Under the pieces are notes generated by a model. That model was not told the DNA's origin. It saw nothing but the letters and a program-made list of their open reading frames with translations, and did not search any database. DNA of 64,000 nucleotides from Branchiostoma floridae (taxonomy: Eukaryota > Chordata > Leptocardii > Amphioxiformes > Branchiostomatidae): contig NW_023365702.1 in assembly GCF_000003815.2 (NCBI RefSeq), positions 144,828-208,827 on the forward strand, in the 5' to 3' direction. Positions 14,870 to 44,254 of the stretch are shown one piece after another (positions within the stretch are counted from its first letter, which is position 1; the number at the start of each line of letters is the position of its first letter). A program made the position numbers and the translations under genes.

Positions 14870-15987
14870 AGTCATACACCCCAGATACATGTCTATCATT
14901 GCGAGAGAGCTCGAATGCAAGCTATTACTAGTACTAGTGTCACTGATTGGTGACAAACTACTGGCTGAAATAATTTGCTTTTAGTCCATCGCTGACGTTG
15001 ATCTGATTGTATGCAGGGTTCTCCCCAGAATTTTTTTTAGCATAGTGGAGGGACGGGCAAAAATAGCACAACGGTAAGATGATTATTTTTCGGAAAACCC
15101 AATCTTATTTTCTGAAAAGTTGATTGCAATTCATGAAGTTAACAGGGACAGTTAGCACTGTTTTCATAAAAATGGGCTCATTTTGCAAGGACAGAGGGTA
15201 TCAAATACTACAAGAATAATAGCGATTCCTTTTGTTGTGTAGTGGCGATTCTGTGTTTCAACCGGCAAAGGGGACTTAACTTGTCTGTTGTTTTGTGACT
15301 GAGGCAAGGCTGAGGCTCCCGGGTTAGGGCGGGCAGGCCGCCTGCCTGGCACAGAAGCACTCAACGTTGGGAGCACTTACAACCGTGCCAGGCAGGGCAT
15401 TCCACTCCGGTACTGTGCGTGCAAAAAACGAGTTTTTGTAAATGTCTGTGCGTGCGTATATGGGTTGATATTTGTAGTTGTGACTACCCCAGGTGCGCCC
15501 TTGGGCAGGCTTGAGAATATTACTGGCGTCTATATTAATAAATATAACGTTATTGACTACTTTATAGAAAAAGGTGTCAGATGTCAGAACTGCGGGAAGT
15601 CACAACCCGGGGACGGTGTTACTACTAGTAGTATTTTCCCCTCACAGGCCCTGCTGTTTGAATAATCTGCATAACAATTGTCCCATTTTCGATGCTGAAA
15701 ACATAAACTTCAAACAAGGAGGTTAAAATCTTTTTTTTTTTCAACCTCCTTGGTTCAACGTATATCAACATTTCCTTTAGGATACGATCTATTGTCCAGT
15801 GCAGTGAATACAGACAGCAGAACCAGTAAAATTTACTGGTAAAAAGTAAAATTATTTTACTTTGAATACAACCCCCCTCCCCCTTCACGGGCCCTGCCAT
15901 CCAAGCTTGGAATTCAGCTGCAGGGCGTTCGAGCTTTCTGTCAAATCTACAGAGCTTTTAGTATCAAAATCCAAAAGGTCGTCTTAC
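14870..15987 (-). other. Intron 1 of gene 3, remaining part
   Basis: Non-coding. It includes a poly-C run (14850-14866), sequence without recognised repeats (15000-15600), and a hairpin AACAAGGAGGTTAAAA...TTCAACCTCCTTGGTT at about 15715-15755. This intron lacks the GGTACC-bounded repeat common in the others. Confidence 0.45.
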
Positions 15988-16150
15988 CTGAACAAACTTG
16001 AACACTGGTCCGGTAGAAAAACGTCAGTCGACTCCCTAAAAACAGCCCAAAATTGTGCTCTTCGTAATGGAAGAAAAACTTTCCACACCACGCCGTTTGC
16101 GAGTTCCAGAAAACAGGAAGTTGCGTCAGATGACCCGGAAGTATACTATG
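15988..16150 (-). promoter_or_regulatory. Promoter and non-coding exon 1 of gene 3
   Basis: In minus-strand sense: ACTTCCGGGTCATCTGACGC and AACTTCCTG, then the ACGGCG box, and exon 1 ending TTGTTCAG at 15988 with donor GTAAGACG. The upstream side runs into an assembly gap at 16199. Confidence 0.72.
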
Positions 16151-16198
16151 GATACGGGTCGAACAGCATCTCTTGGTTGCTCAATACATGTCGCTATC

Positions 16199-16298
16199 NN
16201 NNNNNNNNNNNNNNNNNNNNNNNNNNNNNNNNNNNNNNNNNNNNNNNNNNNNNNNNNNNNNNNNNNNNNNNNNNNNNNNNNNNNNNNNNNNNNNNNNN
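16199..16298. other. Assembly gap (100 N)
   Basis: A run of exactly 100 N. It hides the junction between the gene 3 promoter and the LINE, and probably the LINE's 5' region including any endonuclease domain. Confidence 1.
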
Positions 16299-19200
16299 CT
16301 CAGCTGAAGGACAGCAGAAGAGAGTGAAAGAGGCAAGGAAGAGATATAAACATAGAAGAGATCCAAGAAATCGAATGAGATTAGATGAGGAGAAAGAAAG
16401 ATACTACGTGATGATAGAAGAAGCTAAAAGCAAAAAAGAGGCAAGTGAGTTAAAAGAATTGAATACAAAAGATAACAAGAAGTTATGGAAGACAGTGAAC
16501 AACATACGAAAACCAAGAGAGAAAACGGTAACACAGCCAATCAGAAGAGATGATGGCACAGTAGCGTACGATGATGAGGAGATTGCAGAGGAGGTAATGA
16601 AAACATATGGAGGTGACACGGCTCTAGAATTAGATAAGGAATGGAGAGAAAAGATAGAAGAAGAAGCAAATCAATCTCTGAGAGAGGCCGCTAGAGAAGA
16701 AATGAGCCGCACAGAAGAGATGAAGAATGAATGCAGAGTAAACCGTATAAAAGAGACAAATATAAAGGAAAGAGAAACTGAAACAAGATCACATGAGGAG
16801 ACAATGGCTGAAGAAATAAATAGAGAGATCAGTGAGGAAGAAGTCTCAGAAGCAATCCAAGTAATGGAGTACAGTGCACCGAGTCCTGAAGAAAGAATTC
16901 CAGCCATTCTTCTGAAGAAAGGAGGAAATGGCCTGGTGCAGGCATTACACATGTTGCTCCAGAAGGCTTGGACAGAAGGAAAGCACCCAAAAAGCTTCAG
17001 ACAAGACCCCAAAATTCTAATCCAGAAGCCAAACAAAGAGAACTACAACAACACAAAGAGTTACAGACCAATCACATTACAGAGTATCATAGGCAAACTG
17101 CTACAAAGAGTGATGAATAACAGACTGATTTGGTTTCTTGAAGCAGGAGGTAAACTTGCAGAAACACAAGACGCATACAGAAAACAGAGAACATGTACAC
17201 AGACCATCCTCAGACTTGTACAAGACATCCAGATGGCCTGGCAAGATGGTGAAACAGTGATACTGGTAGTAATGGACCTTGAGTCATGCTACGAAAGAAT
17301 ATGGAGAGAAGGCCTATTGTGGAAACTATGGAAGATGGGTGTAGGAGGTAGGATGCTTGCCAATATACACGAGTTTCTGAACAGATGGAACAGATTCTGT
17401 GTAAATGACTACACGACAGAATGGAAGGAAACATATGTTGGCATACCACAGGGTGCTATACTTTCACCCACACTCTGCAATGCTTACACATGTGATATGC
17501 TCAAAGATGTGAGTTCTGAACATGGAGAATATGCTGATGACAACATGCTGTGGAAAAGGGGTAAGGACATAGATGCACTAGTGAGTACAATTCAGAATGA
17601 CATTGACAGTACTCTACAGTGGTGCAACAAATGGAATGCAAAGATACAAGCTGAAAAAACTGAATACATGGTATTCCAACCTCCTAAGGAGCAGAGAAAG
17701 AGAGTGGTACTACAGATGGGAAACAGCACATTGACAGAAGCAGAAGAAAAAAGATTAATGGGTATATACATGGACAGATACTTACATATGAGAGCACACG
17801 TGGAGCATCAAACCAAGAAAGCATACAAAACTCTGAAAGCAGTAGCCAGTGTGTTAGACCCAAGAACGGGACTTGACCAAAATACAGCTACACATGTGTA
17901 CAAGACACTTGTACGCCCACATGCAGAGTTTGGAGCATCCTTGATGGTTAATGCAACAGACACGGCTGTGAAGAAGTTGGAAGGAGTACAGAGACAGGCG
18001 CTGTTGAAAATCACTGGATGCCTGTCACACACTTCTACTGAGGCACTGGAGGTGCTAACAAACGTTATGCCCCTAGATATACACCTGAGAAGTATACAAG
18101 CCATGGAGTATGCCAGACTCCTAATGAAGAACAACAATACCATGATAGGACACATGATGAACAAGTGGCAAGCTACAGAGCATGAAAGAACACCTACAAC
18201 ATTGACACTGTTACACAACTGCTATAGACACAGCGTGGGTAAAAGGGCAGCGGACCCAGTTGAGGAAGAGTTTCAGTACAAAAGTGAAAATATCTCCTTC
18301 AAACCTGTACGAACTAAAAAGGTCTTCAACATACGGGAGGTACTGAGCAAAAAGGAAGGAGCTGTTGAGATACAAAAGATGCTTGGGAAGGTCACACACG
18401 AAGATGTCATCTGTTTTACGGATGGCTCAGCACTAGGAAATCCAGGCCCAACGGGCAGCGGCGCTGCAATATACCTAAAAGGACTAGACAGTATACCGAT
18501 TTGCCTGAAGAAATCAGTGTCAAGTGAAGGCAACAATTATATAGGAGAACTGCATGGTTTGTTGCTGGCGGCAGAACTCATTAAGAAAAGCAAGATACAC
18601 GGAAAGAACATATTTATACTATGTGATTGTAAATCAGCAATCGAAGCTGTATCACATGCTGGGCAACCCAGAAGCAATCAAGAAACAACCATGAAGATAA
18701 GAAAGACACTAGCTGAAATTGCAGAAAATAAGAACAATTTACAGATCCTATGGACCCCTGGTCATATGGGCATTACAGGCAATGAGATAGCAGATGGTCT
18801 TGCAAAGGAAGCAGCTAAGGAGAGTAAAAAAGAAGAACACATGATGATTGCACTTATGACAAAACAAGACATCAAGAAGGAAATCAATGAAAACTCCACA
18901 CAGAGATGGCAAAATAGATACATGCTGTCGACACAAAGTATCTTAACGCACAGTGTGATCAAGAAAGTGGGAGTAAGAAGAATGTTAAGTAGTATGACGG
19001 ATAGAAGAGGATATATACTGCTGAACCACATACTAAGCGGACACACAAGACTCAATAGCTTGGAGAAACTGACCAACCCTGAGTGCAAAACAGACCTGTG
19101 TAAACACTGCTTGGTGCCGGAAACCATAGAACATTATTTATGGGATTGTGACCTTTATTCAGAGCAGAGAGAGAGATTACAGAGAGACACATACCTCTGT

Positions 19201-19575
19201 CTGAGAGAAGAGGGAATGATGACAGTGAATCCAGAGGATCTGGAAATCTATGCAGGATCAGAGGAGGAGATTAGCAAGGAAGGAGTGGAAAAACTCCAAA
19301 CAGCCCTGATCAAATACTTGACAAGTACAAGAAGATTTGAACAATGACTGATGAGAGGGAAGATGGAGAATGAGAATAGACAACAAAAGGAATAGAAGAA
19401 TGGAAGTTTGAAGGGATACCGACAATGTGTGCAAAAGCCGACCAATTGGAAAAAGCAGCAAGAGTGTAACACATGTGTTTGGATGCACATAGAGAGAAAG
19501 GAATGAAGGAAAGCACATGAGACCATTTACCGACAACTGAAGCGGTTAGAGAGACAACAACAACAACAACAACAA
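16299..19575 (+). mobile_element. Non-LTR retrotransposon (RT + RNase H), 5' end in gap
   Basis: One open frame with RT and RNase H domains is followed by about 200 bp of 3' UTR and a tail of ACA triplets (about 19555-19575). There are no LTRs or poly(A). RNase H downstream of RT and a simple-repeat tail fit the I/ingi-like group of LINEs; the clade is an inference. The uninterrupted frame of more than 1000 codons suggests a recent insertion. Confidence 0.85.
16300..19347 (+). CDS. LINE ORF2-like polyprotein: reverse transcriptase and RNase H (5' partial)
   Basis: About 1015 codons from the gap to TGA. The N-terminal part is a Lys/Glu-rich linker. RT motifs follow in order: SYRPITLQSIIGKLL, VVMDLESCYERIW (motif A Asp), GIPQGAILSP (motif B) and EYADDNMLW (YADD catalytic pair). 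RNase H follows with CFTDGSALGNPGP, GELHGLLLAAEL, ILCDCKSA and TPGHMGITGNEIAD, which supply the D-E-D-D catalytic set. A C-terminal CKHC...HYLWDC motif resembles the zinc knuckle of many LINEs. No endonuclease is visible; it may be in the preceding gap. The protein would copy its own RNA by target-primed reverse transcription. Confidence 0.9.
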   Translation, partial: SAEGQQKRVKEARKRYKHRRDPRNRMRLDEEKERYYVMIEEAKSKKEASELKELNTKDNKKLWKTVNNIRKPREKTVTQPIRRDDGTVAYDDEEIAEEVMKTYGGDTALELDKEWREKIEEEANQSLREAAREEMSRTEEMKNECRVNRIKETNIKERETETRSHEETMAEEINREISEEEVSEAIQVMEYSAPSPEERIPAILLKKGGNGLVQALHMLLQKAWTEGKHPKSFRQDPKILIQKPNKENYNNTKSYRPITLQSIIGKLLQRVMNNRLIWFLEAGGKLAETQDAYRKQRTCTQTILRLVQDIQMAWQDGETVILVVMDLESCYERIWREGLLWKLWKMGVGGRMLANIHEFLNRWNRFCVNDYTTEWKETYVGIPQGAILSPTLCNAYTCDMLKDVSSEHGEYADDNMLWKRGKDIDALVSTIQNDIDSTLQWCNKWNAKIQAEKTEYMVFQPPKEQRKRVVLQMGNSTLTEAEEKRLMGIYMDRYLHMRAHVEHQTKKAYKTLKAVASVLDPRTGLDQNTATHVYKTLVRPHAEFGASLMVNATDTAVKKLEGVQRQALLKITGCLSHTSTEALEVLTNVMPLDIHLRSIQAMEYARLLMKNNNTMIGHMMNKWQATEHERTPTTLTLLHNCYRHSVGKRAADPVEEEFQYKSENISFKPVRTKKVFNIREVLSKKEGAVEIQKMLGKVTHEDVICFTDGSALGNPGPTGSGAAIYLKGLDSIPICLKKSVSSEGNNYIGELHGLLLAAELIKKSKIHGKNIFILCDCKSAIEAVSHAGQPRSNQETTMKIRKTLAEIAENKNNLQILWTPGHMGITGNEIADGLAKEAAKESKKEEHMMIALMTKQDIKKEINENSTQRWQNRYMLSTQSILTHSVIKKVGVRRMLSSMTDRRGYILLNHILSGHTRLNSLEKLTNPECKTDLCKHCLVPETIEHYLWDCDLYSEQRERLQRDTYLCLREEGMMTVNPEDLEIYAGSEEEISKEGVEKLQTALIKYLTSTRRFEQ

Positions 19576-24120: not shown

Positions 24121-24726
24121 ATGGCATCAACAAGCAACGTGCAGAGTTCGGATGACGTCAGGAGAAATGCAGAAGAGGTTAAATCTGTGCAACATGGCAC
24201 TAGCAGACGGGAGAAGTGCTACAGATGTGAGGAGTGCAGCAAGCAGTTCAGTCGGTTAGGGCATCTAAAGCAACACATAATCACACACACTGGAGAGAAA
24301 CCCTTCAGGTGTGAGGAGTGCAGCAGGCAGTTCAGTCAGCTGGGTAGTCTAAAAATTCACATGCGGACTCACACAGGGGAGAAACCCTACAGGTGTGAGG
24401 AGTGCAGCAAGCAGTTCAGTCAGCTGGGTAAGCTGAAAATCCACATGCGGACTCACACAGGGGAGAAGCCCTACAGATGTGAGGAGTGCAGCAAGCATTT
24501 CAGTCAGCTCAGTCATCTGAAGGAACACATACGGACTCACACAGGGGAGAAACCCTACAAATGCGAGGAGTGCAGCAAGCAGTTTAGTCAGCTTCATCAT
24601 CTAAAGATACACATGCGAACTCACACAGGGGAGAAACCGTACATGTGTGAGGAGTGCAGCAAACAGTTCAGTCTGCTGGGTAATCTGAAGAAACACATGC
24701 GAACTCACACTGGGGATAAACCTTAG
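24121..24726 (+). CDS. C2H2 zinc-finger protein, 6 fingers (gene 5), truncated
   Basis: Leader [16 protein letters not shown]... followed by six intact fingers; 201 residues. The ATG lies just after the acceptor (TTTCCCTACAG, ending about 24101). A premature stop arises in the linker: GGGGATAAACCTTAGTTAAGTGTG replaces GGGGAGAAACCCTACAAGTGTG. Finger-like sequence continues out of frame for 330 bp, so this is a shortened member. The same stop-creating linker occurs at the end of the array at about 35829. It may be functional as a short protein or be on the way to a pseudogene. Confidence 0.85.
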   Translation: MASTSNVQSSDDVRRNAEEVKSVQHGTSRREKCYRCEECSKQFSRLGHLKQHIITHTGEKPFRCEECSRQFSQLGSLKIHMRTHTGEKPYRCEECSKQFSQLGKLKIHMRTHTGEKPYRCEECSKHFSQLSHLKEHIRTHTGEKPYKCEECSKQFSQLHHLKIHMRTHTGEKPYMCEECSKQFSLLGNLKKHMRTHTGDKP

Positions 24727-25052
24727 TTAAGTGTGAGGAGTGTAGCAGGCGGTTCATTTAGTTGAGTCATCTAAAAAACATGTAGAGACTCACACACGGG
24801 AGAAACTGTACAAAGGTAAGGAATGCAGCAGGCAGATTAGTCAGCTGAGTACTCTAAAGGGACACACGCAAACTCACACAGGTGAGAAACCTTACGGTTG
24901 TGAGGTGCGGAGAAACTTTTTGGTGAATTGAAGAAGCATATGCTCACACTGAAGAGAACCCCTACAAGTCTGCTGGTGAAACACATGGCAGAGCATTTAC
25001 CGCAATTCAGTCAGCTGAGTAGTCTTAGAAAGCACATGCAAACTCTCAAATA
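24727..25052 (+). pseudogene. Decayed finger tail of gene 5
   Basis: About four fingers are recognisable (GTGAGGAGTGTAGCAGGCGG, AAGGTAAGGAATGCAGCAGG and others) but with stops, frameshifts and lost His codons. It ends with the family terminus AGAAAGCACATGCAAACTC. A paralogous copy at 35832-35952 / 44007-44254 is split by an 8 kb insertion. Confidence 0.85.
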
Positions 25053-34453: not shown

Positions 34454-35952
<1,499 letters not shown>

Positions 35953-35999
35953 TATCTTTCCTGCGCTGTGATTGGCGATGCCTATATTAGGCGAAGACC

Positions 36000-36076
36000 C
36001 AATCCCATATAAAGGCAGGATAGACTATTCACATGCAGTTTGACGGACTCCTCCCCACAGCCGGTTCGTCGACGCC
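36000..36076 (+). promoter_or_regulatory. TATA promoter in the left end of E1
   Basis: An inverted CCAAT box (GATTGG, 35970s) is followed by CATATAAAGGC (36005-36015). The same sequence is in E2 at about 43735-43750. Transcription would run rightward into E1. Confidence 0.5.
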
Positions 36077-36181
36077 ATGGCTACGGAAACACAGAAGATC
36101 CACAGAAAGACCGCCAGCAGGTTTTCGGGGTGTAGAAGAGAGACCGAGTATTTACCTCGTTTGCGTTTACAGGGAGTATAG
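36077..36181 (+). CDS. Possible small ORF after the E1 promoter, 34 aa
   Basis: ATG in a good context (GACGCCATGG), 68 bp after the TATA box. The frame reads MATETQKIHRKTASRF and onward and is rich in basic residues. It has no recognised domain. It could be a leader exon; an acceptor-like TTTACAG lies near its end. Very uncertain. Confidence 0.2.
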   Translation: MATETQKIHRKTASRFSGCRRETEYLPRLRLQGV

Positions 36182-37700
36182 AATTCGAAGATTGCCCTTT
36201 TAGTGTCATGAAGATTTCGTATTTTATTTTGCTTTGTGAAACTGCGAGAAGTTGTTGCTGCGTAGGGACGAATGTGAGTTGTCTGCGTTTTTGCACGTGT
36301 ATCACTCTTTGTCATGCTGAGGTCCGTTCTTCTCGCAGACACTGGCGTGCCGGGCATTGTGTATGGGTTATGGAAGAAAGCATGCCTCACTGCGAGAATA
36401 GACGCTTATTTTGGGCGTTTGTTAGACATCACAGGTATATGCAGTACTGTCTGACAGAACGTCGACGGAGAAGGCAAGTCACACCGCCGGCACGGCCGAC
36501 CCCAGCATGACTGACGCAGCAGCCTTGTGAATGAGCCGGACGTTCCATAGCAGAGCACCAGTAACACTGTTTTTGAGTGAGACTCACCAGGACAAGTCTG
36601 CGATATCTACGACCTTCTGAGAACTGGTAGGGAAACTTGCCGACAACAGAGAAGATAGAGTAGTTTCCTACGGGCGTAGGATTTACAAGCCAAGCAGGTA
36701 CGCAAGGTTTTGAGCTCGCCGCCATTTTTGGCGTCTTGTGGAATTTTCCATTTTGATTTGTCTTCCTACGTTGGCTGTTTTTCTAGTGGATCCCTCGGCT
36801 GTTTTCTTTCTTGTTCCTTCATGATTTTATTTTCCTGTTTTCCCCTTTTGTATGATTTTGGTGTGTTTTGTTGGTCAGCAACTATTCTGTCGTTCATTTC
36901 GTTTAGCGACTCGTAATTTGCATATGTTTGCGCATCGCACATATTTCGCGTGCGCAGGTGTGAGTGATTCTATTTGGTAAAATAGGCTTGGTATAATTAA
37001 TTTTGTGTTGTCTCATTTGAGTTAGGTATGTTGATACAGCTGAGCCACCGCTAGGACTGCCGTTTACCCCGTCTTTTCGCCATAGGAGCCTTTGTGAAGC
37101 GGTACAACGTTGTTCCAGTTTCCGCACGCTCGGAGCAGAGCCCGACCTTTTTTATCAAGAAAGAGTCGGAGGCTTCAACTTATCACTGGTAGCTCTATGG
37201 GTGAGTTACGTTCTTTGAAAGGCTTTAGACAGTATGTGGTATAGTTTTTTGTCTGCCTATCACGTTTGTTGGTTGTTGTGGAAGGAGTCGAACGTATTGC
37301 CTTATTTTACGTATTTTCCTTTTGTTTTTTTCTGTATATTTGCTTTGTTTAATTTTGAAGTTAGGTTCGGCGATTCTGGGCATTGCATTTTGTGGACCAG
37401 CCAGCATTCAGCAACCCGAAAAGCTGAGGGACCAGGCCTCAAGACGCTCGGACAGCTGTCAACCACTGCGGCAGTTTTCCTAAGGTGTGTCCTATATCTC
37501 AGCTAGAGGTTGTTATCTTGTTGCTCGTCAGGTCGGCAGACAGCCTCGAGTTTGTAGCGAGATTTCAGGTGATTTGATTTTTGTTTTTTTATGAGCCGAT
37601 TTGCTTTTTGTTGGGTTTCTCGCTTGACAGGTTCTTGGACAACCCTAGGTAGAAAAAAAAAAGTGTTTGCAGTTTTTTGTCTGGTTGGTGTCATGCAATA
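36182..37700 (+). other. E1 interior, left segment
   Basis: No supported gene. Notable sites are a YY1-type GCCGCCATTTTTGGC (36719-36733) and an NRF1-like CGCGTGCGCAGG (36947-36958). The sequence is less AT-rich than the zinc-finger introns and shares no repeat with them. Confidence 0.45.
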
Positions 37701-37739
37701 GTTTGTTGGACAATTGAACTGTTGGACAGTTTTTGTTTG

Positions 37740-39560
37740 CTGTTGTCGTACGGCATGCTGTAAACAACCCCAGAGAGATAACAAGACTGCTGGAAAGTTT
37801 TGTTGTTGTTGTCATGCGACAGGTTGTTGGACAACCCCAGGTAAGTAACAAGACTGTCGGACAGTTTTGTTTTGTAGTTGTCATGCGACAGGTTGTTGGA
37901 CAACCCCAGGTAAGTAACAAGACTGTTGGACAGTTTTGTTTGTAGTTGTCATGCGACAGGTTGTTGGACAACCCCAGGTAAGTAACAAGACTATTGGATA
38001 GTTTTGTTTGTGGATGGACGACGGGTTGTGGGATAGCACCAGGCAGGTAACAGGACTGTTGGACAGTTTTGTTTGTTGATGTACGACAGGTTGTGGGACA
38101 ACACCAGGCAAGTAACAAGACTGTTGGACAGTTTGGTTTGTTGATGTACGACAGGCTGTGGGACGGCACCAGGCAAGTAACAGGACTGTTGGACAGTTTG
38201 GTTTGTTGATGTATACGATAGGCTGTGGGACAGCACCAGGCAAGTAACAGGACTGTTGGACAGTTTTGTTTGTTGATGTGCGACAGGCTGTGGGACAGCA
38301 CCAGGCAGGTAACAAGACTGTTGGACAGTTTGGTTTGTTGATGTACGACAGGCTGTGGGACGGCACCAGGCAAGTAACAGGACTGTTGGACAGTTTGGTT
38401 TGTTGATGTATACGATAGGCTGTGGGACAGCACCAGGCAAGTAACAGGACTGTTGGACAGTTTTGTTGATGTGCGACAGGCTGTGGGACAGCACCAGGCA
38501 GGTAACAAGACTGTTGGACAGTTTTGTTTGTTGACGTACGACAGGCTGTGGAACAGCACCAGGCAGGTACAGGACTGTTGGGCAGTTTGGTTCGTTGATG
38601 TACGACAAGCTGTGGGACAGCACCAGGCAAGTAACAGGACTGTTGGACAGTTTGGTTCGTTGATGAACGATAGGCTGTGGGACAGCACTAGGCAGGTAAC
38701 AAGGTTGTTGATGAACAGTTTGGTTTGTTGATGTACGACAGGCTGTGGGACAGTACCAGGCAAGTAACAGGACTGTCGGACAGTTTGTTTGTTGATGTAC
38801 GACAGGCTGTGGGACAGCACCAGGCAAGTAACAAGACTGTTGGACAGTTTGGTTTGTTGTCGTGCGACAGGCTGTGGGACAGCACCAGGCAGGTAACAGG
38901 ACTGTTGGACAGTTTGGTTTGTTGTCGTGCGACAGGCAGTGAGACAACGCCAGGTAGAGTAACAACAGTGTACGACAGTTTTTTGTTTGCTGTTGTCGTA
39001 TGACAGGTTGTTGGACAACCCCGGGTAGGTAACAAGACTGTTGGACAGTTTTGTTTGTTGTTGTCGTGCGACAGGTTGGTTAGACAACCCCAGAGAAGTA
39101 AAAAGGCTGCTCGACAGTTTTGTGACGCTGTGCTGTAGTACGACAGATTGTTTAGCAACTCCAGGAAGCCAACAAGACTGTTGGACATTTTTTGTTTTGT
39201 TGCTGTCGTGCGACAGGTTGTTAGACAACCCCAGAGAAGTAAAAAGGCTGTTAGACAGTTTTGTGGGTTGTCGTACGATAGATTGTTTAGCAACCCCAGG
39301 TAAGCAGCAAAACTGTTGGACATTTTTGTTTGTTGTTGTCGTGTGACAGGTTGTTAGACAACCTCAGAGAATTAAAAAGGCTGTTAGATAGTTTTGTGTG
39401 TTGTTGTACGACAGATTGTTGAGTAACCCCAGGTAAGCAGCAAGACTGTTGGAAAGTTTTTGGACTAGAGAAGTAAAGAGACTGTTAGACAGTTTTCTGT
39501 TATCGCACGATACGTTGTTACAAATTTGTTACCCAGGTGTTAGTGGTTGGTCGCACGACA
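37740..39560 (+). repeat. Minisatellite, ~65-68 bp unit, about 26 copies
   Basis: The unit contains GCGACAGG, TTGTGGGACA, AC(A/C)CCAGG(T/C)AAGTAAC, AAGACTGTTGGACAG and TTTTGTTTGTTG. Central copies (38010-38940) are the most uniform and flanking ones degenerate. The antisense strand is free of stops in all three frames for hundreds of codons, because the unit lacks stops there. Units carry CAGGTAAGT or CAGGCAAGT, matching 5' splice-site consensus, after GTTGT..ACAAC hairpin potential. Confidence 0.9.
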
Positions 39561-40329
39561 GGTTGTTTAGACAAGCCTAGGTAGGTAACATGGCTGGCGG
39601 ACAATTTTTTTATTTTGTTTGTTATGCGACAAGTTGTGGGACAACCACAGGTGGAGTTTAAGACTAAAGGACAATTTTTGTGTGATATGGAGCCGTACTA
39701 TTAGTTATTGGACAGCTTCAGGCTGATAACAGGACTTGGTTTTCGTTCGGTTTGTTACTTGACAAGTCGAGGGACAACTCTAGGCTGATATAGTTGGTCG
39801 TGCGACAGGGCAGCCACATGTAGGAAATGAGAATAGTACAGTTTGGCTGGCTGACTACGACAGGTTTTGGTTAACTTCGTGATGGTACATACCGAGACTG
39901 TCCGATACTTTGGTGAGATTTGTGGCATTGCAGATTGTTGATGGACCCCGTGTAGATAACGAGAACGGCAAGCAGCTTTTAACGCGATTGAGAAAATATC
40001 TACAGAAGCACTGAAGTCGAGGCCGACAATTGTGAAGATTACGGTGTGCAATGTAGAGAATAGTACGTCGTGGATAGTTTTAGGACGGACAGCACAAGAT
40101 TAAAAGTTGGCACTTATATACGTATAACTGCAAGGAGTTTGAACTAATTACGAGTATCATTCGTTCGTTTTTCAACACGCTATTGTATCGCTATGATTCT
40201 TGGTACACGTACGTTTTCTTTGAAGTACAAGACACAGAGCAACATTGTCGTAGAACATTCGTAACCAACGACGTATTCGTTAGGTGGTACAGGTTTTCAA
40301 GAGAAAGGATAGCTTCAGAGGAGGGATCA

Positions 40330-40460
40330 GGCGTATCCCACAATGCATTGCGGTTTCCGGTCTACGCAAGATATATACGTTGGACCGGAAGTTCTATTTC
40401 ATTCGAAACTATGTCGGCGCCCCAGACGGACAGATAAGTGGTGGCTCCCGACTTTCCGTC
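40330..40460 (+). promoter_or_regulatory. ZNF143/STAF + ETS promoter-like segment in E1
   Basis: TCCCACAATGCATTGCGG (40335-40352) fits the ZNF143/STAF consensus TCCCA..ATGC..nGCG. It is followed at 40384 by ACCGGAAGT (ETS). Eighteen bases further on is ATGTCGGCGCC (40411), starting an 8-codon frame. This combination is typical of TATA-less housekeeping promoters and unlike transposon interiors. Confidence 0.45.
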
Positions 40461-43010
40461 CTGTAAGCGTAATTTGTCAGGTTGTACCGTATCCTTAAGT
40501 CACTATTCCTGACATGTGAATGCTTACAAGTTGATATTGTGCCTGTCAACCTGCGGTGTTGCCAATTTTTTCTGGTAACCTCAAATTCATGACTGCGAAA
40601 CTGGGCTGCCGACAAACAACAAACGTTTTTAGAACAATTTAGAACAGGTGTTCCATTGTACTGTTCTCTTCTTCCATGTGCCAACACAGGACTCTGATCC
40701 GTGCTCTTTCCATATATTTGTCATGAAAATCTGCATACATAAACATTGGTGTCTACATACAATAGACTTTAGTCACTAGGTGGATACATGGGGTCTTTGA
40801 TTTAAATCTAGTGGCATTTCCACAGCTGTTTTCTGGCTGTGTGGACTTGAACATCTCAACGAGGGCATATCATTTACGTGTTGTTTGACAATATGGTCCC
40901 GGGCTGATAAGAGCGCAAAAATACGGCAAGACCGAGTCCATGGCTAAGCTGCCACAAAACTGACCGGACATAGCCCAAAATGTGCAACACGTGTCCGAAA
41001 ATCACCAAAAAAGTGTAAGTTCTTGAAGCTACACGGCAGGGAGACATCCACACCGACAGTGAACAACCGTGTGGATAACTCAGTGATAGCCCCCTCCTAC
41101 CGAATCTCAAATTTCTCAGCAAAATGTGGGGACCTTAGATTATCACGGCACCCAACGCAAGCTAAGACATCATAGTACATGTTGAACATACTGAAAACCT
41201 AAGGTCCCCACGATTTTTAGTAACCGATGCGAAGATTCCGTCCGGGAGCATCATGAAATCTTGATGTTTACGTAATGCTGTTCGAAGACAAAATACCCAA
41301 ATCTAACGTATAGAATAACTGTTGTCTCCGAAGGAACACCTAAATGTAATATTCATTGCCTCTACAAAGACACTAAATAAACCTGCCCCCTAAAACTGCA
41401 CAGTCACGGAGCAGAAAGCCCTAAAACTAGGCAAGATTGGAAATCACATTCAGCCACACATGGCAAACAACCGGAAATCAGGGGTCAAAGGTAAAATTGC
41501 ATTCTGGGTAACCCCGGACCCCTCCTCTGGGATAGCTTCATCCCGAAGGACATGCAATATGATAAATATGTTACAGGAAGCATTCAGTACAACGCGCGTG
41601 GGTGTGATGCGAGGACGTCTGAAAATACCACCTCAAGTTCAGCAACTTAGACCCACCAGCCAGCTGAGAAGTACACGCAGCAAACCATATGGGAGGACGG
41701 CGCACAGGCAGGGATGGTGGCCAAGCAAAAGGATCAAGAAGTTTAAAACTAGACTTAAAATTCAGAAACAGAGAGACAACAGCCCCAGAATTTTTTTACT
41801 CTCTCGTACGTTCGAATTGTGACCTGAAGTTTCATTTTGCCTTAAAGTAACAGAAGATGTTAGAGGGCGTCTGTTAAACGCTTTCTTCGTAAAAAAAAAA
41901 GAACATCTATACTGTCTTAAAGTTCACTGTAGGTATGACCACTGTATTTGCTTGTTTTTAATTAGAACACATCAACGTCAGAAGTTGTCCAGGAAGTGAC
42001 ATGTTTTTCGTTGTAATGTTGAGAAACAACTAGTTATTAAATCGGTTTGCTGTTTTCGTCTGTCTCCATTTTCTTTACTTGGTAGTACGTTCCAGCGCTT
42101 ATGGTTTATAAGTAATTTGAAAAGGAGCATGTTTAATATAAAGTGCCATGAATAACTACAGGTTCGTGTATCTTGGGTAGTAATTTGTTGATAACTTGAC
42201 GAGGCACGAAAGTTAAAAGGCAGCAGTTATTTTGTCGTTTTATCGAAACATTTAGGCCAAAGTCTAATTTTGCTTCGTAGGTAGATCTGACATGTTTAGC
42301 TGTAATGAGTCCAAAGATGACGCTATAAAAGTTTCAGGTTAATATAGCCAGTATTAAAAGGTCACTGCTTACTTTCTAACTGTCAGCCTTTATTGGCACA
42401 CACAGGGTTAAGGCTTATTTATAGAAGACATGAAGGTTTTGCTGCACATAAAATAAAATGTCTTCAATTTATCACATATGCTTTCCAAGCCAGACCTAGT
42501 AATGCAGGGTTGGCTACCCAGCGCAAAACGGCATTGGCCAAAACTGGTTTCGTCAAGTATGTATCAATTCAAGGGTAAGTGGATTTTCCAGAGAGTTTGT
42601 TATCAGTGAAAAGCTAGAACAGTAGTGAGGAGGACTCTAACACTTCAATACAGATTTTTTGTTTAGATACAATTATCCCAATGTATGTGACGTAGCTTGG
42701 TTTGCTAAACGGCAAATATTTGAAACCGAATGTCGACATTTTTTTGTTTATACCCGAGTTCTGATAGGGAGAAATGGGATTATATTGGGTATTTATTCTT
42801 GCAATATGTCTGGGCCATTTGTGTACGTCGAATTTGGAGAGATCCGTTATACGAAAGTTACATCTCCTGCGATAATAGACCATGGTTACATACCGTTTCT
42901 ATTCTTTTTATGGGGTTGGAAGTATGTTTGGAGTTTGCAACATCTGACAGAGGACATTTCTAGTAGTTTTTAGAAGAGGACCGCCGGCGATGCAAGAAAT
43001 AAAAAGTATT
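40461..43010 (+). other. E1 interior, right segment
   Basis: No supported gene. A short inverted repeat GGGGACCTTAG / CTAAGGTCCCC (41130-41208) encloses about 60 bp. An ATG-initiated basic frame of 120 codons (41460-41822) and an open stretch at 42659-42973 followed by AATAAA (about 42999) show no recognisable motif. I list them here rather than call them genes. Confidence 0.4.
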
Positions 43011-43069
43011 AGACTGCACATTAGTTTTATTGTAGTTGATTCACTTCCGATAAGCAGGACACGAATAAA

Positions 43070-43300
43070 AGAATAATGAATGGAGGTTGGGGTAGAAAGG
43101 AATAGAGAATGATGGTGTGAAGAACTTGGCGGATGAGAGTGGGAGAAGTAAGGATGAGAGTGGGAGAGAACGATAGAGTCAAGGAAGGTTAAGATGAGAT
43201 TGGGGATAGTAGGAGGTATGGATATTTAAGAACGATGGAGTGAAGGAAAGTTAGGATGAGATTAGGAATAGTAGGAGGTATGCATATGTAAGAAGGAAGA
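43070..43300 (+). repeat. Purine-rich degenerate tandem repeat
   Basis: GATGAGATTGGGGATAGTAG (43193) and GATGAGATTAGGAATAGTAG (43254) are about 61 bp apart, with weaker GATGAGAGTGGGAGA copies upstream. The strand is nearly all A/G and GT. Confidence 0.7.
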
Positions 43301-43354
43301 ATAGTAGCGCCAATATTGTATAGTGATTGTTATGGTAGGTCTGGACCACCACCC

Positions 43355-43422
43355 ATATAAGTGGTAGAGTCCGCTAGTGGTTACGTCACGCACTGTGTGT
43401 GTGGTGCTGGTTGTTTACCATC
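43355..43422 (+). promoter_or_regulatory. TATA/CRE promoter-like segment near the right end of E1
   Basis: CATATAAGTGG at about 43352-43362 and TTACGTCA (CRE half-palindrome) at 43381-43388 precede an ATG at 43423. Confidence 0.35.
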
Positions 43423-43596
43423 ATGGAACGGTTCCATAAGAAGTTGTCAATAGACTATGTTGAGTATGTTGACTATGCGTCCACTGTCGTCCTTGAGTAT
43501 ACACCGCACGCGTTTCCTATTAGCGTGGAGTCAGCGGTTGGGCTCCTAGAACCCACACACGCACCAAGAAGCTTGGATGCCACGCAACTCAGGTAA
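43423..43596 (+). CDS. Possible first coding exon in E1, 57 aa
   Basis: The ATG lies in CATCATGG. The frame reads MERFHKKLSIDYVEYVDY and continues to TTHAPRSLDATQLR-like sequence before TAA. A splice donor CTCAG|GTAATG (43592) lies just before the stop, so it may be a 5' exon rather than a complete gene. No domain is recognised. It sits about 90 bp inside the right end of E1. Confidence 0.3.
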   Translation: MERFHKKLSIDYVEYVDYASTVVLEYTPHAFPISVESAVGLLEPTHAPRSLDATQLR

Positions 43597-43685
43597 TGAT
43601 ACTAAAAAGAAGAGGCGCGACGGAAGGCACCACCCCATAGCTTCATATGGATGAGTCAATCACTGCGCAGAAAGAATAGGTAACT

Positions 43686-44006
43686 ATCTTTCCTGCGCTG
43701 TGATTGGCGATGCCTATATTAGGCGAAGACCCAATCCCATATAAAGGCAGGATAGACTATTCACATGCAGTTTGACGGACTCATCCGCACAGCCTGGAAT
43801 CCGTCGAAGACGTGAACATGGGATAGAAGGAGTGGGGCAAGGGAAAAGAGGTAGGCACGATGGAGCGCAGTTTTCTTTTTCGCCCGCCCACCCACCCACC
43901 CACTCAGTCTGGGGAATGTTATATGTATCACATCTTCGCGCGACTCCAGGCACCACCCCATAGCTTCATATGGATGAGTCAATCACTGCGCAGAAAGAAT
44001 AGGTAA
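43686..44006 (+). mobile_element. E2: 321 bp derivative of E1, head-to-tail
   Basis: It shares its first ~105 bp (including the CCAAT and TATA boxes) and last ~70 bp with E1, with a different centre that includes a CCCACCCACCC run. It abuts E1 directly with one CT between them (GGTAA|CT|ATCTTTCC). It is probably a MITE of the same family. Confidence 0.8.
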
Positions 44007-44254
44007 CTGAGTACTCTAAAGGGACACACGCAAACTCACACAGGTGAGAAACCTTACGGTTGTGAGGTGCGGAGAAACTTTTTGGTGAATTGAAGAAGCA
44101 TATGCATATGCGGTGCAGCCAAACCAATAAATAAAGAAGCATATGCTCACACTGAAGAGAACCCTACAAGTCTGCTGGTGAAACACTTGACAGAGCATTT
44201 ACCGCAAGTCAGTCAGCTGAGTAGTCTTAGAAAGCACATGCAAACTCACGAATA
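44007..44254 (+). pseudogene. Decayed finger tail of gene 7, right part
   Basis: Resumes exactly where 35952 stopped (CTGAGTACTCTAAAGGGACAC) and is colinear with 24852-25052. It ends at the family terminus (AAAGCACATGCAAACTCACG). A 29-bp insert with a 12-bp duplication is at 44093-44145. Confidence 0.85.
44093..44145 (+). mobile_element. Minute retroposon-like insert with 12-bp TSD
   Basis: AAGAAGCATATG occurs at 44093-44104 and 44134-44145, flanking 29 bp that end CCAATAAATA. The paralogue at 24945 has one AAGAAGCATATG and no insert. Confidence 0.65.

Follow-up and report, generated by a model that had tools for sequence, protein, structure and literature searches.

A 64,000-nucleotide stretch of the amphioxus Branchiostoma floridae genome (contig NW_023365702.1, positions 144,828 to 208,827; hereafter, the window) contains two adjacent elements, E1 (35954-43683, plus strand) and E2 (43686-44006, plus strand), that interrupt a sequence derived from zinc fingers. 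E1 is 7,730 bp long and has no recognised coding capacity, and E2, at only 321 bp, has the same ends as E1 around a different interior. Very probably, E1 and E2 are two copies of one family of non-autonomous DNA transposons. As to how they moved, we tentatively favor, at a probability of about 0.4, integration of a closed circle by an enzyme resembling tyrosine recombinases. The evidence for these two propositions is described below, along with the competing explanations.

The insertion is precise. Together with the CT dinucleotides that follow each element, at the E1/E2 junction (43684-43685) and at the right host junction (44007-44008, plus strand), E1 and E2 make up 8,055 bp. CT is present at all 3 junctions and only once in the empty site, which is represented by the paralogous sequence AGTCAGCTGAGTAC (24839-24852, plus strand) that reads through without an insertion. 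When the flanks of E1 and E2 are joined and aligned to the paralogue (24.2-24.9 kb), they form one stretch across the junction, with 88.4% identity over 739 bp. The original prediction, made by inspection of the sequence, had used this uninterrupted paralogue to pin the insertion point, and the alignment bears it out; the coordinates, the end sequences and the CT at all 3 junctions likewise were correctly given. The case for the empty site rests on the flank alignment because the first 13 letters of AGTCAGCTGAGTAC are a recurrent finger-repeat sequence that occurs at 5 places on the plus strand of the window, namely, the paralogous site and four other finger repeats. Thus, the precise insertion and the empty site that characterize non-autonomous DNA transposons are both found here, the empty site being paralogous, not orthologous. 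On the simplest reading, the insertion would be younger than the duplication of the zinc-finger sequence.

The shared ends occur in two copies, E1 and E2. The left ends (35954-36060 in E1, plus strand) are identical over the first 97 bp, with 98.1% identity over 107 bp, and the right ends (43615-43683 in E1, plus strand) are identical over the last 61 bp including the CT, with 95.7% identity over 69 bp without it, whereas the interiors of the two elements are unrelated to each other. These values agree with the roughly 105 bp and 70 bp of shared ends and the distinct interiors reported originally. By eye, the left end of E1 includes CCAAT-like and TATA-like (ATATAAA, at about 36009) motifs. 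Exact patterns of the ends had no match in viral_contigs or genome_contigs, collections where an animal repeat is hardly to be expected. Literature searches with terminal sequence words and with terms for amphioxus miniature inverted-repeat transposable elements (MITEs) returned no papers, and no title about the E1/E2 family was recognised otherwise.

The ends are inverted with respect to each other. The left arm, CTATCTTTCCTGCGCTGTGATTG (35952-35974, plus strand), the first two letters of which are the junction CT, matches the reverse complement of the right arm, CTATTCTTTCTGCGCAGTGATTG (43657-43679, minus strand), at 19 of 23 positions in an ungapped alignment, so that the imperfect inverted terminus noticed earlier is genuine and extends further, to about 23 bp. 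The gapped local score of the inverted ends is 31, compared with a maximum of 30 among 3,000 resamples under a dinucleotide model; the score of 31 is also reached by 71 of 5,000 inverted pairs drawn at random from the window, and we suppose that the finger repeats are behind these high-scoring pairs. The two arms are lopsided: the left arm opens with the junction CT, and 4 bp (GTAA) separate the right arm from its own CT. For this reason, at the E1/E2 junction, where the right arm is followed by GTAACT (43680-43685, plus strand), the arms flank GTAA, an arrangement of joined ends that we count in favor of a circular intermediate.

The host sequence to the left of the insertion, GCAGGCAGATTAGTCAGCT (35935-35953, plus strand), resembles the right end of the element, GCAGAAAGAATAGGTAACT, with 13 of 19 positions matching. 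Among the 111,796 sites on both strands of the window with the insertion excluded, 17 match the right end this well; when the length is left free between 8 and 25, an equally good match is found at 33 of 110,864 sites and, among the 7,349 sites that end in CT, at 16. Each of these counts includes the paralogous empty site. Because the likeness was found post hoc, in one of 4 comparisons between flanks and ends, a fair estimate of its probability by chance, conditioned on the CT, is about 0.01; the other three comparisons yielded no likeness.

Under the circle-integration scenario, the enzyme that moves E1 and E2 would be produced elsewhere and supplied in trans. The element would circularize, and its joined ends (right arm, GTAA, left arm) would constitute an attachment-like site, which an enzyme of the tyrosine recombinase type would recombine with a host site similar to the right end, with only CT exactly common to the two partners. 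E1 would have entered first, into the decayed zinc-finger remnant, followed by E2, at the right terminus of E1. A resident right end would be the best next target, giving rise to head-to-tail tandems. It is conceivable, albeit unlikely on present evidence, that this scenario extends to an entire chordate family with lopsided ends, for which circles would enter right-end-like host sites with the help of a trans-supplied recombinase, the resident copy being the preferred target.

Several observations weigh against circle integration. The exact direct repeat is CT alone, and the junctions are also explained by a duplication of CT. The likeness to the right end comes from a single independent host target. 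No recombinase gene was detected in the six reading frames of E1 searched against Pfam, although a non-autonomous copy would lack one anyway. Cryptons are described as lacking terminal inverted repeats, and E1 and E2 depart from this trait in having the 19/23 arms. Furthermore, the joined ends at the E1/E2 junction fold well (z -5.8; none of 200 shuffles is as good), as does the whole of E2 (z -3.2; none of 100 shuffles), but such folds are expected of any inverted ends and lend no support to a circle.

A more conventional explanation, to which we assign a substantial probability, if short of an even chance, is that E1 and E2 are non-autonomous transposons of the DDE cut-and-paste type that generate a 2-bp CT target-site duplication, E2 having used the CT next to E1 as its target, with the result that the two elements share it. 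The inverted ends fit this explanation, and so does the CT, with a single copy in the empty site and one at each of the 3 junctions. Assignment to a DDE superfamily calls for inverted repeats in register with both junctions, which the ends of E1 and E2 do not display: once the CT is set aside, the arms are 6 bp out of register, and the termini read from outside, ATCTTTCC and TTACCTAT, show no terminal identity. The duplication would consist of CT only, at one host target, and chance alone produces a 2-bp match in about 1/16 of cases. Elements that insert beside repeats via a common duplication are described in a review (PMC12628747); however, one group with 2-bp duplications, ISL2EU, is reported to duplicate AT (PMC4482050).

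Rolling-circle transposition of the Helitron2/Helentron type, with its asymmetric inverted repeats, absence of target duplication, tandem insertions, captured DNA and internal arrays, appears improbable. Asymmetric or subterminal inverted repeats, tandem insertions and central arrays have all been reported for these elements (PMC5148889, PMC4067079, PMC12628747), and, in the case of E1 and E2, the arms are lopsided, the copies are in tandem and E1 contains an array. However, the published 3' arms are located about 20-60 bp from the end (PMC5148889, PMC4067079), compared with 4-6 bp here; the end regions folded singly do not surpass their shuffled controls (z -1.29 and 0.35, 200 shuffles each); the target AGTCAGCTGAGTAC is neither TT/T-rich nor A|T; and the Pfam search of E1 detected no Rep/helicase, which, again, would be missing from a non-autonomous copy in any case. 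We also considered and rejected terminal hairpins of the Helitron type, GCCTATATTAGGC and CCATAGCTTCATATGG, for which 5-bp stems are visible at both ends and the folds do not go beyond shuffles; a canonical Helitron, whose combination of 5' TC, 3' CTRR and A|T target is not seen when both orientations are inspected by eye; and a DIRS-like internal complementary region, given that the ends match only each other and their E2 counterparts in the window. The least probable explanation, in our assessment a very remote one, is a one-off rearrangement in which end joining captured a DNA fragment, perhaps an extrachromosomal circle. That CT is the only sequence exactly common at the junction and that the same ends are known so far only from E1 and E2 would be compatible with such an event, whereas an internal E1/E2 junction bounded exactly as the host junctions are, and the presence in E2 of both E1 ends around another interior, argue against it.

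The interior of E1 is consistent with a non-autonomous element. A Pfam search of the six frames, with X at stops, found no families at E up to 1, in accord with the original statement that no transposase, reverse transcriptase or integrase is recognisable; the Pfam search covered E1, and in E2 the longest stop-to-stop frame is 83 amino acids. No other match to the E1 interior was found within the window at 1e-3. RNA families of the Rfam type were absent from 35900-44100 at E up to 1 and from the entire window at gathering scores, and a tRNA search by ARAGORN under the bacterial code came back empty. What the interior does contain is an array of units of about 65 bp (37626-39678, plus strand), with two short palindromes per unit and 26 units aligned; a nested element of about 1.2 kb (40316-41529) with 32-bp inverted ends (alignment score 34), bordered by a 9-bp duplication, GGATAGCTT, at 40307-40315 and 41530-41538; and a 62-bp tandem duplication (43167-43294, plus strand). 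The proposed capacity to carry some 7.5 kb of host DNA is not demonstrated by this content, the tandem array and the nested element fitting a decayed parent equally well. Toward the right end, at 43355-43600, a TATA-like motif discerned by eye is followed by a short open frame that finishes near CAGGTAATG; this frame (43378-43596) has no Pfam match at E up to 0.01.

In the 24 distinct units among the 26 of the array, 93.8% of the cells pair, a level reached by none of 500 shuffles and compared with at most 58.8% in slid controls, and the covariation score is above that of all 500 shuffles. As counter-controls, 178 of 500 shuffles reach the count of double-changed pairs (2) and 143 of 500 reach the count of pair types (11). 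One of the double changes (T-A to C-G) is common to 10 distinct units and may represent a single event, and RNAalifold picked another fold for the array. We make no claim of a structured RNA or hairpin array, palindromic protein sites accounting for the pairing equally well. Splice-donor-like motifs in the array, CAGGTAAGT (3 times) and CAGGCAAGT (8 times), are found on the plus strand and not on the minus strand; they are not independent of one another because they are located in copied units.

The insertion interrupts finger-derived sequence, as originally proposed, but the description of a split zinc-finger array does not hold in full because the target is the already decayed tail beyond a stop shared by the paralogues. 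In the finger register, both paralogues come to an identical stop (...HTGDKP*), located at 24724-24726 in the uninterrupted paralogue and at 35831-35833 on the E1 side, where 120 bp separate it from the insertion; the reading frame of the E1-side array closes earlier still, at 35542 (near 35.5 kb). Given that the insertion lies past the common stop, it did not split a working finger frame, and damage to a gene need not be assumed. The window as a whole includes 11 finger arrays with an 84-bp period between 1485 and 63928, of which 3 are minus-strand arrays within the first 14.4 kb and 8 are on the plus strand; this layout looks like an expanded gene cluster. Elsewhere, at 15850-19344 on the plus strand, an open frame of 1,165 codons with Pfam matches to reverse transcriptase (E 1.1e-30) and RNase H (E 1.6e-14) is probably a non-long-terminal-repeat retrotransposon; a run of N at 16199-16298 lies inside this frame.

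The implications of the circle-integration scenario depend on whether the right-end-like target is general. If so, it would link an orphan non-autonomous group to a class of recombinases and would account for the head-to-tail pairs as well as the tolerance of interiors of 321 bp and 7.7 kb; if not, E1 and E2 would represent a routine MITE-like pair that postdates the zinc-finger duplication.

Among the known systems, MITE-type and larger non-autonomous DNA transposons resemble E1 and E2 in the lack of recognised coding, the conserved and inverted ends, the variable interiors and the precise insertion, but the E1/E2 arms, unlike theirs, begin at unequal distances from the two junctions. Helitron2, Helentron and HINE elements are similar in their asymmetric or subterminal inverted repeats, tandem insertions and central arrays, as described in PMC5148889 and PMC4067079, and differ from E1 and E2, which do not fit them in arm position, target and end hairpins. 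Within the PHIS superfamily (ISL2EU, NuwaI, NuwaII and PIF/Harbinger), NuwaII and ISL2EU produce short target duplications, and the E1/E2 target contains CTGAG; one NuwaII family is named NuwaII-2_BFlo (PMC4482050). According to the same source, NuwaII uses C|TNA|G and ISL2EU uses AT; in E1 and E2, CT alone is repeated, and none of the AT, CWG, TNA or TWA duplications of the superfamily is present.

Starships, as presented in PMC12257634, are fungal elements moved by a tyrosine recombinase; their terminal inverted repeats are asymmetric, and they have direct repeats, which one named element shows in imperfect form. E1 and E2 are akin to them in the asymmetric terminal inverted repeats, the short direct repeats and the extra DNA carried; in contrast, Starships are fungal and far larger, and they encode a captain recombinase, whereas no such gene was seen in E1. 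Cryptons are described in PMC3212892 as devoid of terminal inverted repeats and of long direct repeats, and we do not claim membership for E1 and E2 because of the former trait. The 4- or 6-bp direct repeats given there for Cryptons have no equivalent either, TCAGCT and GTAACT matching at 3 of 6 positions, nor did the Pfam search of E1 detect a tyrosine recombinase gene, one that a non-autonomous copy would lack. Nevertheless, Cryptons are DNA transposons for which integration of a circle at short shared repeats has been proposed, and Branchiostoma floridae is entered in the table of chordate Cryptons (PMC3212892).

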